Below are positions 1,083-40,651 of a stretch of DNA of 64,000 nt, one piece after another (the first letter of the stretch is position 1; each line of letters begins with the position of its first letter). Below the pieces are notes generated by a model that searched no databases, had not been told where the DNA came from, and saw nothing but the letters and a program-made list of their open reading frames with translations. Position numbers and translations under genes: made by a program. Origin of the DNA: an uncultured Methylomonas sp. (GTDB lineage Bacteria; Pseudomonadota; Gammaproteobacteria; Methylococcales; Methylomonadaceae); NCBI GenBank assembly GCA_936941155.1, contig CAKZJE010000017.1, positions 1 to 64,000 of the forward strand. The letters are read 5' to 3'.

Positions 1083-4000
1083 ATGTCAATTCAAGCAATT
1101 CAAAAATTCCACAATGAAATTGAAGAAATAAAAGACTTCAGTGGGGAAACAAAAGAACAGTCTATAAAAATGAGTTTTCTTAATTTATTAAATTATTATT
1201 GCAGAAAACGTAATTTATTAACTGTGAGTGAAATTAGCATTAAAAATAAAAACGGTGAAGTTATTCGTCCTGATGGCATTATAAAAAATCGTTCACGTTT
1301 TAATTGTGGCTATTGGGAAAGTAAAGCTAATTGTGTGTTAGAGAAAGAAATTGAATTAAAAATAAATTCAGGTTATCCATTAACAAACACATTGTTTCAA
1401 GATACTAAATTTGCCATTTTGTATCAAGATGAAAAATTTGTATTAAAAGCATCAACAGAGGATTATGCGGAATTTGATAAACTATTAACTCAATTTGTCA
1501 GCTACGAAATCAAAGAAATAAAGGAATTTAATACAGAAGTTGAAAAATTTAAGAAAAATTTACCTGATATTTTAACAGAGTTAAATGTCTTAATAAAAGA
1601 GCAAGAGATAAATAACAAAGAGTTTATTGATTCACAAAAAAACTTTTTTAAAATTTGTCAAAACAGTATTAATAAAAATATCACTTTAAACGATATTAAT
1701 GAAATGTTAATACAGCATATATTAACAGAAGAAATTTTTATTAGTATTTTTAATGATGCACAATTTCACCATGAAAATAATATAGCAAAAGAACTTTATA
1801 AAGTAGAGTCTACTTTTTTTAAAGGAGCTATAAAACGCAATACTTTGGATAAAGTAAAAAAATATTATGCAGTTATTAAATTATTATCCGCCGCAATTGA
1901 TAATCATCACGATAAACAAATATTTCTGAAAACAGTTTATGAAGACTTTTATAAAGCCTACAATCCTGATAAAGCCGACACAATGGGCATTGTTTATACT
2001 CCCAATGAAATCATTAAATTTCAACTTGAAAGTGTTGATACTTTATTAGAACAGCATTTTAAGAAATTCCTAGCTCACAGAGAAGTTAAAATTTTAGACC
2101 CGTGTACAGGAACAGGAACTTATATTTGTGACTTAATAAATCATTTGCCTAAAAAGGATTTAGAGTATAAATTCAAAAATGAGATTTTTGCTAATGAGTT
2201 AGGTTTATTACCGTATTATATTGCCAATTTAAATATTGAATATACTTATCGGCAAAGAATGGGGAGCTATGTTGAATTTGAACATATTTGCTGGACTGAT
2301 ACTTTAGATAATACGGGCTATTTAAAAGAAGTTAATATGGATTTATTCGATTCAGGTAATATTTTTATTGAAAATACCGAGCGAATTAAAAAACAAAACG
2401 AGCAAAAAATATCTGTAATCATAGGAAATCCGCCTTATAACGCCAACCAGAAAAATGAAAACGATAATAATAAAAATCGTGAGTATTATGATAATAATTT
2501 AGAAAAATTTGATAATTTACAAAATAATAAAGCAAAAAAGAAAGGCGGTATTGATGGGCGCATTAGCGACACTTACATAAAAGAAAGTAATGCACAAAAA
2601 ACAAAACTTTATGACCCTTATGCACGTTTTTACCGCTGGGCTTCGGATAGAATCAGTGAAGAACAAGGAATTATTTCTTTTGTCACCAATAATTCATTTA
2701 TTGAGAGCAAAACCTTTGATGGTTTTAGAAAATGTGTTGCGAGAGAATTTGATTTTATTTATGTCATCAATTTAGGCGGTGACATGCGTAAAAATACCGA
2801 TAGTAATGATAATGTTTTTGGTATTACGGTCGGAGTTGCTTTGTTGTTTTTAGTCAAAACTAATAATAATCCTATTAAAAAAGCTAAGTTATTTTATTAT
2901 TCTTTTCCTAATTGTGATAGCAAAGAAGATAAACTAAGATTACTTGAAGATTCAAAGTTTGAAGAACTAGAATCGGAGTTTGATAGAATTATCCCCGATG
3001 ATAAAAATAACTGGATTAATCAAACTGATAATGATTTTGATAGTTTAATTCCATTGTGCAGCAAGGATGTTAAATCAGGAAAAAGTCAAGATGCAATTTT
3101 TAGTTTATATTCTAATGGTGTTTCAACCAATCGGGATGAATGGGTTTATGATTTTTCAAAATATAACTTAACAAAGAAAATGCAATTTTTCTTTAAAGAA
3201 TATAATAATGAAGTTATTCGATGGAAAAAATGGAAAAAAGAAAACTTTTATACAGATATAAAAGACGAGTCTAATCGTGTTGTTGATAATTTTTTACATG
3301 AAAAAAACTCTATAAAATGGAGTAGCAGATTAAAAAGAGATAAATTAAGAAAACATAAAAAAGGAAAATTCTATAAAAACGATATAATAAATTGTCTTTA
3401 TAGACCTTTTGTAAAAAATTATATTTATAATGGATATATTCCAATTGATATAAAAGGTGAGTTTAACAAAATTTTATTTAACGAAAATAAATTTATTGTT
3501 TTTAATAACGGTGCTTTGCTTCCATTTAATACAATTACTGTTGACTCAATTGTTGACTTACATTTTAATGGTGATTCTGTTTGCTTGCCAATGTATATTA
3601 AAAGTAATGCAGATATTCAAAATGAGAATATAACCAATTGGGCATTAAACGAATTTAAAAAGCATTACGCAAACCTTCCAGGTTTTAAAAACCTGGAAGG
3701 TTTAACCAAACTCGACATTTTCCATTATGTCTATGCCGTTTTACACAATCCAGCCTACCGCGAAAAATACGAACTCAATTTAAAACGCGAATTCCCCCGC
3801 ATTCCTTATTATGAAAATTTTTCACAATGGGCAGAATGGGGAAAACAATTAATGGATTTGCATTTGACTTATGAAACCGTAAAACAATTCCCGCTCGAAA
3901 GGCACGACACAGAACAAGCCAAAATCCCCAAAGCGAAATTAAAAGCCGATAAAGAAAAAGGCATCATAATTTTGGATGACAATACGCATTTAAGCGGCGT

Positions 4001-4241
4001 TCCTTTGCAGGCGTGGGACTATAAATTAGGCAATCGCAGTGCATTAGAATGGATATTAGACCAGTACAAAGAAAAAAGAATTAAAGATGATACTATCCGT
4101 GAACAGTTTAATACTTATCGTTTTGCAGATTATAAAGAACAGGTCATTGATTTATTAATGCGGGTGTGTACGGTGTCGGTGGAAACTGTGAAAATAATTG
4201 CTTTGTTGCAAATTGAAAGCAATCAACCAACCGGCAGCTAA
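1083..4241 (+). CDS. Single-chain restriction-modification enzyme (type IIG / ISP-like N6-adenine methyltransferase-nuclease)
   Basis: A 1052-aa protein joining a nuclease and an adenine methyltransferase. Near the N-terminus a PD-(D/E)xK-type site is visible: RPDG with Asp64, then WESK with Glu79 and Lys81. A helical linker leads to the methyltransferase, with the SAM motif DPCTGTGTY from residue 339 and catalytic NPPY at 449-452. The C-terminal half should be the specificity domain and ends with a region rich in aromatic and charged residues. There is no separate methylase, specificity or helicase gene beside it, so it probably acts alone in cutting and modifying DNA. Codon use is more AT-rich than in the housekeeping neighbours, which suggests transfer. 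Residues 864-874 are encoded by a 33-bp palindrome. The target sequence is unknown. Confidence 0.85.
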   Translation: MSIQAIQKFHNEIEEIKDFSGETKEQSIKMSFLNLLNYYCRKRNLLTVSEISIKNKNGEVIRPDGIIKNRSRFNCGYWESKANCVLEKEIELKINSGYPLTNTLFQDTKFAILYQDEKFVLKASTEDYAEFDKLLTQFVSYEIKEIKEFNTEVEKFKKNLPDILTELNVLIKEQEINNKEFIDSQKNFFKICQNSINKNITLNDINEMLIQHILTEEIFISIFNDAQFHHENNIAKELYKVESTFFKGAIKRNTLDKVKKYYAVIKLLSAAIDNHHDKQIFLKTVYEDFYKAYNPDKADTMGIVYTPNEIIKFQLESVDTLLEQHFKKFLAHREVKILDPCTGTGTYICDLINHLPKKDLEYKFKNEIFANELGLLPYYIANLNIEYTYRQRMGSYVEFEHICWTDTLDNTGYLKEVNMDLFDSGNIFIENTERIKKQNEQKISVIIGNPPYNANQKNENDNNKNREYYDNNLEKFDNLQNNKAKKKGGIDGRISDTYIKESNAQKTKLYDPYARFYRWASDRISEEQGIISFVTNNSFIESKTFDGFRKCVAREFDFIYVINLGGDMRKNTDSNDNVFGITVGVALLFLVKTNNNPIKKAKLFYYSFPNCDSKEDKLRLLEDSKFEELESEFDRIIPDDKNNWINQTDNDFDSLIPLCSKDVKSGKSQDAIFSLYSNGVSTNRDEWVYDFSKYNLTKKMQFFFKEYNNEVIRWKKWKKENFYTDIKDESNRVVDNFLHEKNSIKWSSRLKRDKLRKHKKGKFYKNDIINCLYRPFVKNYIYNGYIPIDIKGEFNKILFNENKFIVFNNGALLPFNTITVDSIVDLHFNGDSVCLPMYIKSNADIQNENITNWALNEFKKHYANLPGFKNLEGLTKLDIFHYVYAVLHNPAYREKYELNLKREFPRIPYYENFSQWAEWGKQLMDLHLTYETVKQFPLERHDTEQAKIPKAKLKADKEKGIIILDDNTHLSGVPLQAWDYKLGNRSALEWILDQYKEKRIKDDTIREQFNTYRFADYKEQVIDLLMRVCTVSVETVKIIALLQIESNQPTGS
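3671..3703. repeat. Family A 33-bp palindrome inside the restriction enzyme gene
   Basis: Two 16-bp arms, AAACCTTCCAGGTTTT and its exact reverse complement, around one central base. It is in-frame and encodes NLPGFKNLEGL. The same peptide core is encoded by the copy in coaX (39961-39993). Confidence 0.9.
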
Positions 4242-7663: not shown

Positions 7664-7696
7664 AAACCCTTCAGGTCTTTAAGACCTGAAGGGTTT
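7664..7696. repeat. Family A 33-bp palindrome, intergenic copy between purB and sufU
   Basis: Arms AAACCCTTCAGGTCTT and its exact reverse complement with one central T. Differences from other family A copies occur as matched pairs in both arms. It lies in the 61-bp gap between the co-directional genes purB and sufU, where it could form a hairpin in the message. Confidence 0.9.
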
Positions 7697-11242: not shown

Positions 11243-11275
11243 ACGACTGGCAGTCCTCAAAGGACTGCCAGTCGT
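11243..11275. repeat. Family B 33-bp palindrome, intact intergenic copy
   Basis: Perfect 15-bp arms ACGACTGGCAGTCCT and AGGACTGCCAGTCGT around CAA. It lies between thiE and soxX. It is the intact counterpart of the interrupted copy at 29031-29325. Confidence 0.9.
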
Positions 11276-14036: not shown

Positions 14037-14069
14037 AGACCTTCCAGGTTTTTAAAACCTGGAAGGTCT
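14037..14069. repeat. Family A 33-bp palindrome downstream of trxB
   Basis: Arms AGACCTTCCAGGTTTT and exact complement around one T. Apart from the central base it is identical to the copy inside coaX at 39961. It marks the boundary between trxB and the accessory island. Confidence 0.92.
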
Positions 14070-27508: not shown

Positions 27509-27547
27509 AAACCTTTCAGGTCTCAAAGACCTGAAAGGTTTTTTTAT
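27509..27547 (+). terminator. Family A palindrome with T-tract, probable terminator of dnaB-alr
   Basis: AAACCTTTCAGGTCTC, A, AAGACCTGAAAGGTTT (15 of 16 arm positions pair) followed directly by a run of Ts. It is the only family A copy in the window with a terminator-like tail. The convergent alr-bioF gap (326 bp) otherwise holds only short palindromes. Confidence 0.75.
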
Positions 27548-27613: not shown

Positions 27614-27641
27614 GTAGAGACGCAATATTTTGCGTCTCTAC
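27614..27641. repeat. Family D palindrome (GTAGAGACGCAA), copy 1
   Basis: 12-bp arms GTAGAGACGCAA and TTGCGTCTCTAC around TATT. Other copies: 27764, 49258, 50977 and 61777. The sequence resembles repeats common in cyanobacterial genomes. Confidence 0.88.
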
Positions 27642-27720
27642 ACGTTTACATAGCATCTAACCATTTTAAAAAACTATGTGTTTCTGAATGGATGCGGTTT
27701 AAGTTGCGCAAAAAATTTTC

Positions 27721-33405: not shown

Positions 33406-33438
33406 AGACCTGACAGGTTTTAAAAACCTGTCAGGTCT
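33406..33438. repeat. Family A 33-bp palindrome between leuA and the XoxJ-like gene
   Basis: AGACCTGACAGGTTTT, A, AAAACCTGTCAGGTCT: perfect 16-bp arms. TGACAGG replaces TTCCAGG with matching changes on the other arm. It lies in the 69-bp gap between two minus-strand genes. Confidence 0.92.
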
Positions 33439-38834: not shown

Positions 38835-39863
38835 ATGAACGAACAGCGGCTGATTTTTACAGATTCTCAAAAAAAACTCCTTAGCCTATTAGCGGATGGC
38901 AAATTCCATTCCGGCACAGTATTGGCAAACACTTTAAACATCAGTCGTTCAGCAATTTGGAAACAAATAGAAAGTTTATCCAGCGAATATGGCGTGGAAA
39001 TTATTGCTGTAAGCGGCAAAGGTTATAAGCTGAATCGTCCGTTGGAATTATTATCAGAAACGCAAATTAAATCAGGATTATCCCAACAATCCGCTGAATT
39101 ATTGTCAAATTTAGAAATTTATCAGCAAATTGATTCTACCAATCGCTATTTAGTTGAACGCGCTCAGACGGCAACCGCTTCCGGTTTAGTCTGTTTTGCA
39201 GAATCGCAAACCGCAGGCAAAGGCAGACGCGGACGACAATGGGTGTCGCCATTTGGCAGCAATATTTATCTGTCTATTTTATGGCGTTTTCAAAATGATC
39301 CTGCCAGCATTTCTGGATTGAGCTTAGCTGTCGGTGTTGCGGTGATTCGTGCTCTACGCGAATTACGTTTAATCGACATCGGCTTAAAATGGCCAAATGA
39401 TATTTATTGGCAGCAAAAAAAATTAGGCGGCATTTTGATTGAAGTCTCAGGCGAGGCGGGCGGCAGTTGCAGTGCGGTGATTGGTTTAGGGTTAAATTTG
39501 TATTTGCCTGAAAAAGAAACCGCTAGCATCACTCAGCCTTGGGTTGACCTTGAGCAAATTAGGACTGCCAGTCCTTTAAAGGACTGGCAGTCCTGCTCCC
39601 GCAATCACATTTCCAGCTTATTACTCAATCATTTATTACCAGTAATTGCGCATTTTGAAACCGACACTTTGCAACAGTATTTATCAGAATGGCGCAGTTA
39701 CGATGTGATGCTAGAGAAAGAAGTCAGTATTTATATCGGCAATCAGGTTATCGACGGCATTGTGAAAGGCATTAATGATGACGGCATGTTGTTGTTGCAA
39801 AACAATGCTGGAGAATTAAAAACCTATGCCTCTGGTGAAGTGAGTTTTCGAGCATCGCTATGA
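38835..39863 (+). CDS. birA: Biotin-[acetyl-CoA-carboxylase] ligase / biotin repressor BirA
   Basis: 342 aa. An N-terminal winged helix (LLSLLADGKFHSGTVLANTL, SRSAIWKQIESL) binds DNA; the central ligase has GKGRRGRQWVSPFGSNIYLS and KWPNDIYWQQKKLGGILIE; the C-terminal SH3-like domain ends GELKTYASGEVSFR. It biotinylates the carboxylase carrier and senses biotin. Residues 243-254 (RTASPLKDWQSC) come from an in-frame 34-bp palindrome, which partly explains why it exceeds the 321-aa E. coli protein. It overlaps coaX by 4 bp. Confidence 0.95.
   Translation: MNEQRLIFTDSQKKLLSLLADGKFHSGTVLANTLNISRSAIWKQIESLSSEYGVEIIAVSGKGYKLNRPLELLSETQIKSGLSQQSAELLSNLEIYQQIDSTNRYLVERAQTATASGLVCFAESQTAGKGRRGRQWVSPFGSNIYLSILWRFQNDPASISGLSLAVGVAVIRALRELRLIDIGLKWPNDIYWQQKKLGGILIEVSGEAGGSCSAVIGLGLNLYLPEKETASITQPWVDLEQIRTASPLKDWQSCSRNHISSLLLNHLLPVIAHFETDTLQQYLSEWRSYDVMLEKEVSIYIGNQVIDGIVKGINDDGMLLLQNNAGELKTYASGEVSFRASL
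39561..39594. repeat. Family B 34-bp perfect palindrome inside birA
   Basis: AGGACTGCCAGTCCTTT and its exact complement with no spacer. In-frame, it adds residues RTASPLKDWQS between the central domain and the following helix NHISSLLLNHLL. Confidence 0.92.
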
Positions 39864-40651
39864 ATATATTGATTGATATTGGTAATAGTCGGGTGAAATG
39901 GGCGTGTGAAGCTAATGGAAATCTCACGCTGCACACAGCGTTATTACATATTGCTAGCCCAGACCTTCCAGGTTTTAAAAACCTGGAAGGTCTCACCGAA
40001 ACACCGTTTGTGAATTGGCAAACACAGCTTTTTCATACATGGCAAACGTTAGAAACACCAAAGAAACTGATTATTTCCTCTGTTGCTCAGCAAACTGTTT
40101 TGGAAACAATTGTTAATTTAGCAATACAACTTTGGGAAAACGTAAAAATCGCAACTCCTAACAGCCAGGATACGCTATTTGGTGTAAAAAATAGTTATTT
40201 ACAGCCTGAAAAACTCGGTGTTGATCGTTGGTTATGTTTGCTGGCAGCGCATTATTTTTATCCAAACACGGCGGCATGGATTATTGATTGCGGCACGGCA
40301 ATCACCGTAGATTTTCTTAATGCCGATGGCGAACATCAAGGCGGGTTAATTTCTCCCGGTTTAACCTTGATGAAAAAATCGTTGTTGCAAAATACGGCGG
40401 CACTGAATTTTAGTGCGCAAACGTTTGAGTTAGGCTTGGCAAATTTCACGGAAGCGGCAATTTTCAGCGGAACAGTGTATGCGGCAGTTGGATTAATCGA
40501 GAAGGCGTTGAAAACTCAAACAACAGAGGTTGTGATATTATTAACCGGTGGTGATGCTGAGTTAGTGAGTCAACAGCTACAGCAACCTTTGATAATAGAG
40601 CCGGATTTAGTTTTAAAAGGATTGTCCATTTTTAGCCATTTAGACTTATGA
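39860..40651 (+). CDS. coaX: Type III pantothenate kinase
   Basis: 263 aa, first enzyme of CoA synthesis from pantothenate; ASKHA fold. DIGNSRVKWACE near residue 6, LGVDRWLCLLAAHY near 119, DCGTAITVDFLNADGEHQGG near 140 and the late LLTGGDAELV are the family motifs. Residues 35-45 (DLPGFKNLEGL) are encoded by an in-frame family A palindrome. Gene order birA-coaX-SPOR with 4-bp overlaps at both ends is typical of gammaproteobacteria. Confidence 0.93.
   Translation: MNILIDIGNSRVKWACEANGNLTLHTALLHIASPDLPGFKNLEGLTETPFVNWQTQLFHTWQTLETPKKLIISSVAQQTVLETIVNLAIQLWENVKIATPNSQDTLFGVKNSYLQPEKLGVDRWLCLLAAHYFYPNTAAWIIDCGTAITVDFLNADGEHQGGLISPGLTLMKKSLLQNTAALNFSAQTFELGLANFTEAAIFSGTVYAAVGLIEKALKTQTTEVVILLTGGDAELVSQQLQQPLIIEPDLVLKGLSIFSHLDL
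39961..39993. repeat. Family A 33-bp palindrome inside coaX
   Basis: AGACCTTCCAGGTTTT, A, AAAACCTGGAAGGTCT. Matches the trxB-downstream copy except for the centre base. Read in the same frame as the copy in the restriction enzyme gene, giving LPGFKNLEGLT in both. Confidence 0.93.

Follow-up and report, generated by a model that had tools for sequence, protein, structure and literature searches.

Results

A palindrome read in frame within coaX

The stretch analysed here (the window, 64,000 nt) carries coaX next to a birA-type gene, and both genes contain a palindrome. The features of the window considered in this study are as follows.

1083..4238, + strand: type ISP restriction-modification ORF, 1052 aa, host of the copy at 3671 (Pfam)
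3671..3703: family 1 copy, AAACCT form, in frame (NLPGFKNLEGL) in the type ISP restriction-modification gene (sequence match, Pfam)
7664..7696: diverged family 1 copy, 4 mismatches, self-complementarity still full (sequence match)
11243..11275: family 2 palindrome, no ORF of at least 100 aa across it
14037..14069: exact family 1 copy, no ORF of at least 100 aa across it
27509..27541: diverged family 1 copy, 3 mismatches, 1 unpaired position (sequence match)
33406..33438: family 1 copy with a GAC/GTC triplet, no ORF of at least 100 aa across it
38835..39863, + strand: biotin protein ligase gene (birA type), host of a family 2 palindrome (ORF, Pfam)
39561..39594: family 2 palindrome, in frame (RTASPLKDWQS) in the birA-type gene adjoining coaX (palindrome scan, translation)
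39860..40651, + strand: coaX, type III pantothenate kinase, 263 aa, carrier of the insert (Pfam PF03309, E 2e-41; NCBIfam TIGR00671, 108 bits, cut-off 58; alignment)
39961..39993: family 1 palindrome in coaX (perfect inverted repeat; 33-mer search, alignment)

The palindrome at 39961-39993 is a perfect 33-bp palindrome, with 16-nt arms that are 100% complementary and a 1-nt centre. Its first base (39961) is the third base of codon 34 of coaX, and it is in frame in the ORF at 39860-40651, where it codes for residues 35-45 (DLPGFKNLEGL). Arm complementarity and frame thus bear out the sequence-only reading, which had described a perfect 33-bp palindrome with 16-bp arms coding for 11 residues. 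The 33-mer has three matches in the window at up to 3 mismatches (2 exact, 1 with 2 mismatches) and none in 100 shuffles. A near-identical second copy differing at the centre had also been pointed out, and it is found at 14037-14069, with T as the centre base; because this copy is the same sequence on the other strand, the difference is one of orientation only, and the copy is exact when read on that strand.

The coaX gene was found in 59 of 61 genomes including the host genome, and the loci of 29 relatives were retrieved. As had been expected for most close relatives, the insert is absent: an 18-residue stretch at its place is missing from all 28 aligned relatives (one of them has a single residue there), and coaX of the relative G001, which is outside this alignment, likewise lacks the stretch. 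Eleven of the 18 extra residues are the palindrome, and the other 7 (1 before and 6 after) are unaccounted for by it. Judged by these alignments, the coaX insert is new in this lineage. The host CoaX has a Pan_kinase domain with the conserved residues D6, G8, N9, D122, R123, D143 to A147 and G230 to D232, all of which are invariant in the 29 rows of the alignment (the host and 28 relatives). In a profile match to solved structures, the pantothenate kinase 4o5f is 5 residues shorter near the insert place, indicating that the insert region is length-variable, and this length-variable position suggests that the insert may sit in a surface loop. AlphaFold without an alignment gave a mean pLDDT of 33.7, too low for the model to be used. 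With its uninterrupted ORF and conserved kinase residues, coaX carrying the insert looks functional.

The assembly of the host genome (4.26 Mb, 99.98% complete) is split into 124 contigs, which leaves some room for coaX being a pseudogene or for the repeat having been collapsed into it by misassembly. Such an artefact or broken gene is very improbable in view of the uninterrupted coaX ORF with its conserved kinase residues, the many recognisable housekeeping genes in the same state in a nearly complete genome, and the recurrence of the arrangement in other assemblies.

Two palindrome families dispersed in the host genome

The coaX palindrome belongs to a family (family 1) with 26 exact copies in the host genome; the count rises to 142 when 2 mismatches are allowed and to 181 with 3. 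A reversed-pattern control search of this genome gave 0 matches. The family copies and the intact kinase residues agree with the earlier proposal of a repeat-family insertion that is read in frame in an apparently functional gene. The plan of family 1 is A-A/G-ACCT nnn AGGT-T/C-T, followed by 3 nt and the same inverted; each half is itself a 15-nt dyad, and the whole makes up a single long hairpin. In the first 173 loci, 154 of 158 ACCTnnnAGGT pairs no more than 25 nt apart are separated by a spacer of 7, most of these loci having been retrieved with a pattern of that spacing. The flanks of 30 host copies (2 rows misplaced) show no common tag, no GT[AG]G hairpin foot and no CGTC, and neither conserved flanks nor a target duplication was seen by eye at the host-genome copies; Methylobacter copies have flanks common to one another. 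Plasmid and phage collections yielded no match at E 0.01, the 64-kb window has no match in Rfam, and a literature text search with two 14-letter pieces of the repeat returned a single, unrelated paper.

A second palindrome family of the host genome (GACTGSCAGTCC...GGACTGSCAGTC, 33 or 34 bp) has the same plan as family 1. Among 13 copies examined, 6 lie in ORFs of at least 100 aa, all in one frame (TASPLKDWQS-type), 2 of these with fewer than 30 residues before the palindrome; one other copy is near the RecC N-terminus in another frame, and the remaining 6 have no ORF of at least 100 aa across them. Family 2 is also present at loci L152, L167, L181, L185 and L192, and the birA site is shorter in the aligned relatives (L006 and L008 shown). 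The DabA gene (L192) contains two family 1 palindromes and one family 2 palindrome, all in frame. A third repeat type of the window, GTAGAGACG...CGTCTCTAC palindromes at 27614, 27764, 50977 and 61777, is like the classical GTAG REPs. Palindromes of the form TTTTCAAGACGACYRGTCGTCTTGAAAA are located at 27716 and 54029, and the same or a close form is found in L001, L201 and L207.

Reading frame and host genes

The reading frame was counted for 79 family 1 copies in context (the window plus host-genome loci, out of roughly 181), restricted to ORFs that reach 150 aa and have 30 or more residues ahead of the element. Twenty-seven of the 79 copies are inside such ORFs, and 26 of these 27 are read in the DLPGFKNLEGL frame, for which the chance of at least 26 of 27 in one frame, given the stop-free frames of each element, is P 1.3e-13. 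The sole copy in another frame is QTFQVLKTWKVS in RecC. The 27 copies take in a degenerate half-copy (PolA) and a diverged copy (MurE), and 19 of them are perfect palindromes. Five further host copies were set apart since a possible start lies closer than 30 residues; the one in DsbD shares the frame and the other four do not. An earlier, looser scan (ORFs of at least 100 aa) had given 38 copies, distributed 23/11/4 by frame, and the stricter rule was adopted because many of the short ORFs in that scan may be spurious. The sequence-only reading had considered a readable landing in an essential gene to be rare, and this finds no support in a genome in which 27 of 79 copies examined are in long ORFs.

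The host proteins named by NCBIfam or Pfam are CoaX, PolA (two with the half-copy), TilS, MurE (two copies), PepN, an RND adaptor, asparaginase, YgiQ, SucB, PgeF/YfiH, an aminoacetone-oxidase-family flavoprotein, RsmB, SMC, PabC, a ThiO-like oxidase, RsmE and AroE, several of the NCBIfam names resting on matches under the equivalog cut-off. Pfam adds DabA (two copies), a protein kinase, an N6 methylase, a transglutaminase-domain protein and the type ISP enzyme. The TCC/GGA type predominates among the perfect copies in these ORFs (18 of 19), and the perfect copies outside are mixed (16 of 38; Fisher 1.2e-4). At L210 and L177, palindromes also occur within an ORF matching MAD2- and MAD5-type defence proteins (one reading frame) and within a protein kinase that carries a fused sulfatase-modifying-factor domain.

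In the loci of other genomes, 12 of 122 family 1 copies pass the ORF filter used for the host genome; the DLPGFKNLEGL frame is used by 8 of them and another frame by 4. Four of the eight same-frame ORFs are larger ones with clear domains (a type ISP enzyme, a histidine kinase, a Roc-COR protein and a DNA methylase), and the remaining four copies are inside RAYT transposase genes. Of the four other-frame ORFs, three are without a Pfam match; in the fourth, the match is to the Cas2 portion of Cas3 and the palindrome lies beyond this region. The strong frame bias is therefore established for the host genome only; it is weaker in the other genomes (8 of 12).

Association with a RAYT transposase gene

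The host genome has two Y1_Tnp matches, one of which (C32:276-851, outside the window) is a RAYT gene flanked by palindromes of family 1 (80-112 and 859-891) and family 2 (221-253). This RAYT is at the cut-off of PF01797 and below that of NCBIfam REP_Tyr_transpos (E 1.3e-15; 57.6, cut-off 80). It has the motifs NHFH and YIHRNP, and the RAYT of L134 has YVHNNP. The RAYT gene of the relative G002 is flanked by AGGGATAACATCCCTTTAAGGGATGTTATCCCT, which is 33 bp long and has the same plan. A fragment at G000:C32:131-211 (L216), upstream of the intact host gene, matches RAYT residues 1-27 and adjoins a family 2 palindrome.

Any palindrome copy at all was found in 13 of 61 relatives, five of which have one or two copies only. 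Close RAYT homologues (>130 bits; next best 72) are present in 4 of the 61, all four of them palindrome carriers (Fisher 0.0014; 0.006 excluding the host genome), and the carriers G011, G024, G028 and G029 (16 to 36 copies) have no close RAYT. Among 24 genomes picked as exact carriers, three of which correspond to the assemblies G001, G002 and G017, the clade RAYT was, by our reading, found in 16 (13 at >110 bits, 3 in two adjoining pieces) and was missing in 8. With up to 5 mismatches allowed, a family 1 palindrome lies inside or within 400 bp of 13 of 17 clade RAYT genes (11 inside) versus 0 of 14 other RAYTs (Fisher 1.9e-5), a comparison in which the 17-gene set is biased by the choice of carrier genomes. 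The host RAYT gene has no REP inside, unlike the 11 of 17 clade genes with an in-frame REP after the HuH motif. Comparison of the RAYT genes of Methylobacter tundripaludum SV96 and of DP16D or FW305 shows a 51-bp difference (the 33-bp palindrome plus 18 bp), which fits movement of a doublet.

The association was also examined in a draw of 198 Bacteroidota genomes, including the carrier G065, with a threshold of 1e-8 for RAYT homologues. There are 24 carriers and 55 genomes with a RAYT homologue, 14 genomes have both (Fisher 0.001), and 10 of the 24 carriers have no RAYT. Genomes with at least 5 copies have a RAYT in 12 of 15 cases versus 43 of 183 for the rest (Fisher 1.8e-5). Thirty Bacteroidota RAYT loci were returned, 28 with a readable ORF; 16 of the 28 ORFs contain a 33 to 37 bp palindrome after the HuH motif, and 19 have a palindrome nearby outside the gene, often of another sequence. 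Downstream of the RAYT gene of L134 (a Bacteroidetes MAG), a tandem array at 2569-2808 consists of four palindromes 69 bp apart. Because carriers without a RAYT gene exist, loss of the gene, action in trans or another agent is possible.

These results bear on the earlier proposal that the Rickettsia palindromic elements are the closest kind, which is not upheld, since the transposase gene linked to the palindromes indicates RAYT/REP elements. Like the Rickettsia elements, the palindromes described here are coding palindromes inserted in frame in unrelated genes for functional proteins; the Rickettsia elements have rickettsial hosts, whereas the present host does not belong to the Rickettsiales. 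According to Di Nocera et al. (2013, PMC3733652, main text), RPE-4 and RPE-6 correspond to CGTC REPs, which have no association with a transposase gene, and the CGTC tag is lacking in the flanks of the present element. A selfish coding palindrome independent of any RAYT, whether a true Rickettsia palindromic element or its direct analogue, would behave in the same way (palindromic, in frame in unrelated protein genes, with one preferred frame) and would suit the carriers without a close RAYT, but the host, the untagged flanks and the clear association with the RAYT clade make it unlikely. We therefore treat the Rickettsia elements as an analogy.

Paired changes in the two arms

Among the host copies (n = 78, 25 distinct, half-copy excluded), 61 are perfect palindromes. 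In the 25 distinct copies, 39 cells differ in both arms with Watson-Crick pairing intact, and 15 differ in one arm only. In the same distinct set, 384 of 400 cells are paired, versus at most 357 in 2000 shuffles. In Bacteroidota, where the triplets were left free in the search pattern, they are complementary in 49 of the 53 zero-mismatch places listed (25 of 29 distinct), in nine classes. The RAYT-gene palindromes of Methylobacter FW305 and DP16D differ by one compensated pair, in surroundings that are about 91% identical. None of these counts of paired changes should be read as a probability, because related copies are not independent.

The orthologous sites of 21 of 22 host segments were compared with the same-genus genomes G002, G001 or both, the RND adaptor being left out. 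Most of these sites in G001 and G002 have no palindrome. The YgiQ gene of G001 has the palindrome with one change in each arm, one altering the protein and the other silent. In DabA of G002, the triplet is GAC/GTC versus TCC/GGA in the host, a difference that alters both protein sides and keeps the palindrome; re-insertion of a different copy could also account for it. The SMC gene of G002 has one unpaired change in the palindrome. The second DabA site, TilS and AnsA of G002 have apparent decayed copies with 4, 7 and 6 mismatches, respectively, which suggests that part of the insertions predate the split. In the type ISP (methylase) gene of G001 (L297), an unrelated palindrome, CCCCCTTTAATAAAGGGGG, occupies the spot of the host family 1 copy. 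No clean empty site or insertion footprint was found at the host-genome sites in comparison with the same-genus genomes, in which net length differences range from none to about 20 residues; we therefore claim no clean footprint, and the nearest relatives are too far for a clean empty site to be demonstrable.

The paired-arm differences at shared in-gene sites suggest that it is at the DNA level that palindromes are maintained or renewed, in some cases to the detriment of the protein sequence. Hairpin-templated repair during replication is known as quasi-palindrome correction. Palindromy could be kept by such repair, by re-copying from intact elements or by selection for mobility. The strong conservation of palindromy (61 of 78 host copies perfect) would also be expected if the palindromes were kept as functional sites, such as an RNA hairpin, a protein-binding site or a terminator, with an incidental location in genes. 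However, the pairs switch by transversion and one-sided G-T or C-A states are scarce, which is not the pattern of RNA stems; the T run is inside the hairpin rather than after it, Rfam has no match in the window, and copies of any kind are limited to 13 of 61 relatives and lie in many unrelated genes, so we regard maintenance as functional sites as improbable. The pattern of pair changes disfavours an RNA-hairpin function in particular.

Discussion

We consider it likely that the coaX insert is one copy of a dispersed, untagged 33-bp REP that is tolerated in genes and whose mobility most likely comes from a REP-associated tyrosine transposase (RAYT; HuH, Y1). As in RAYT-associated REPs, the palindrome is short, dispersed and present in many copies, and copies flank a HuH/Y1 RAYT-type gene. 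In the main text of Quentin et al. (2018, PMC6006769), the TnpAREP of subclass 2.4, reported from Cyanobacteria, Bacteroidetes and other phyla, is likewise a HuH/Y1 transposase with an NH[IFV]H motif, and in-frame REPs inside its own tnpAREP gene are described. The subclass 2.4 REPs differ from the present element in having GT[AG]G (some also C[TC]AC, a 'double foot'), whereas the ends here are AGA...TCT or AAA...TTT and untagged; the Y motif is YIxNNP there and YIHRNP in the host protein; and their REPs are inserted in tnpAREP, whereas the present element runs through housekeeping genes in one frame. Subclass 2.6 of the same text, mainly from Bacteroidetes, resembles the present system in the untagged atypical hairpins that flank the gene, but it has NH[LIV]H and YIH[QN]NP instead of NHFH and YIHRNP, and in-gene REPs are described there for 2.4 and not for 2.6.

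Short palindromes within ORFs of known proteins have also been described as intragenic GTAG and CGTC REPs in many proteins of several species, including DNA polymerase I and RecBCD (main text of PMC3733652). Unlike the present element, these are tagged and have shorter stems of 5-13 bp (Table 1 of PMC3733652); frame preference and paired-arm variation were not found for them in the sections consulted. The coding palindromes of Nematomorpha mitochondria (PMC6649704) are perfect inverted repeats within functional protein genes as well, but they reach 284 bp, their arms encode conserved protein regions, and they are not a dispersed 33-bp mobile family. Because intragenic REPs (PMC3733652) and REPs in tnpAREP (PMC6006769) are already published, the kind of element is known. 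What appears to be new is the untagged 33-bp REP type, its spread over housekeeping genes in one frame and the paired triplet, none of which was found in the passages of these two papers that were consulted or in the open-access literature searched.

In TnpAREP and IS200/IS605 biochemistry, a folded single strand is recognised and re-inserted (in part PMC6006769), and we infer by analogy that the RAYT of the host clade would act in the same way. The RAYT would recognise the palindrome hairpin as single-stranded DNA and insert it at new sites, singly or as a doublet. The palindrome can be tolerated in genes because 33 bp equal 11 codons and one frame is stop-free. Copies landing in the DLPGFKNLEGL frame in tolerant, length-variable protein segments would survive, and those in other frames would be lost in nearly all cases, such that survival at the protein level would yield the frame bias. 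Variant copies mostly differ in both arms, and palindromy is thus upheld even where the protein changes. The DLPGFKNLEGL peptide is probably a tolerated passenger. A broader proposal, which we regard as possible rather than probable, is that a RAYT clade in at least two phyla, with REPs of ~33 bp, mainly paired drift and a protein-friendly frame, represents an element adapted to life in genes, repeatedly giving the same peptide to essential enzymes while its palindrome is kept perfect in place by correction or renewal at the DNA level.

More than 20 recognisable proteins of one genome contain the same readable palindrome in one frame, and a likely transposase accompanies them. An old question thereby becomes testable, namely how palindromes that can be translated come to lie in proteins and what lets a single frame survive. 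For annotators, DLPGFKNLEGL-like peptides are tags of a mobile element and no evidence of homology.
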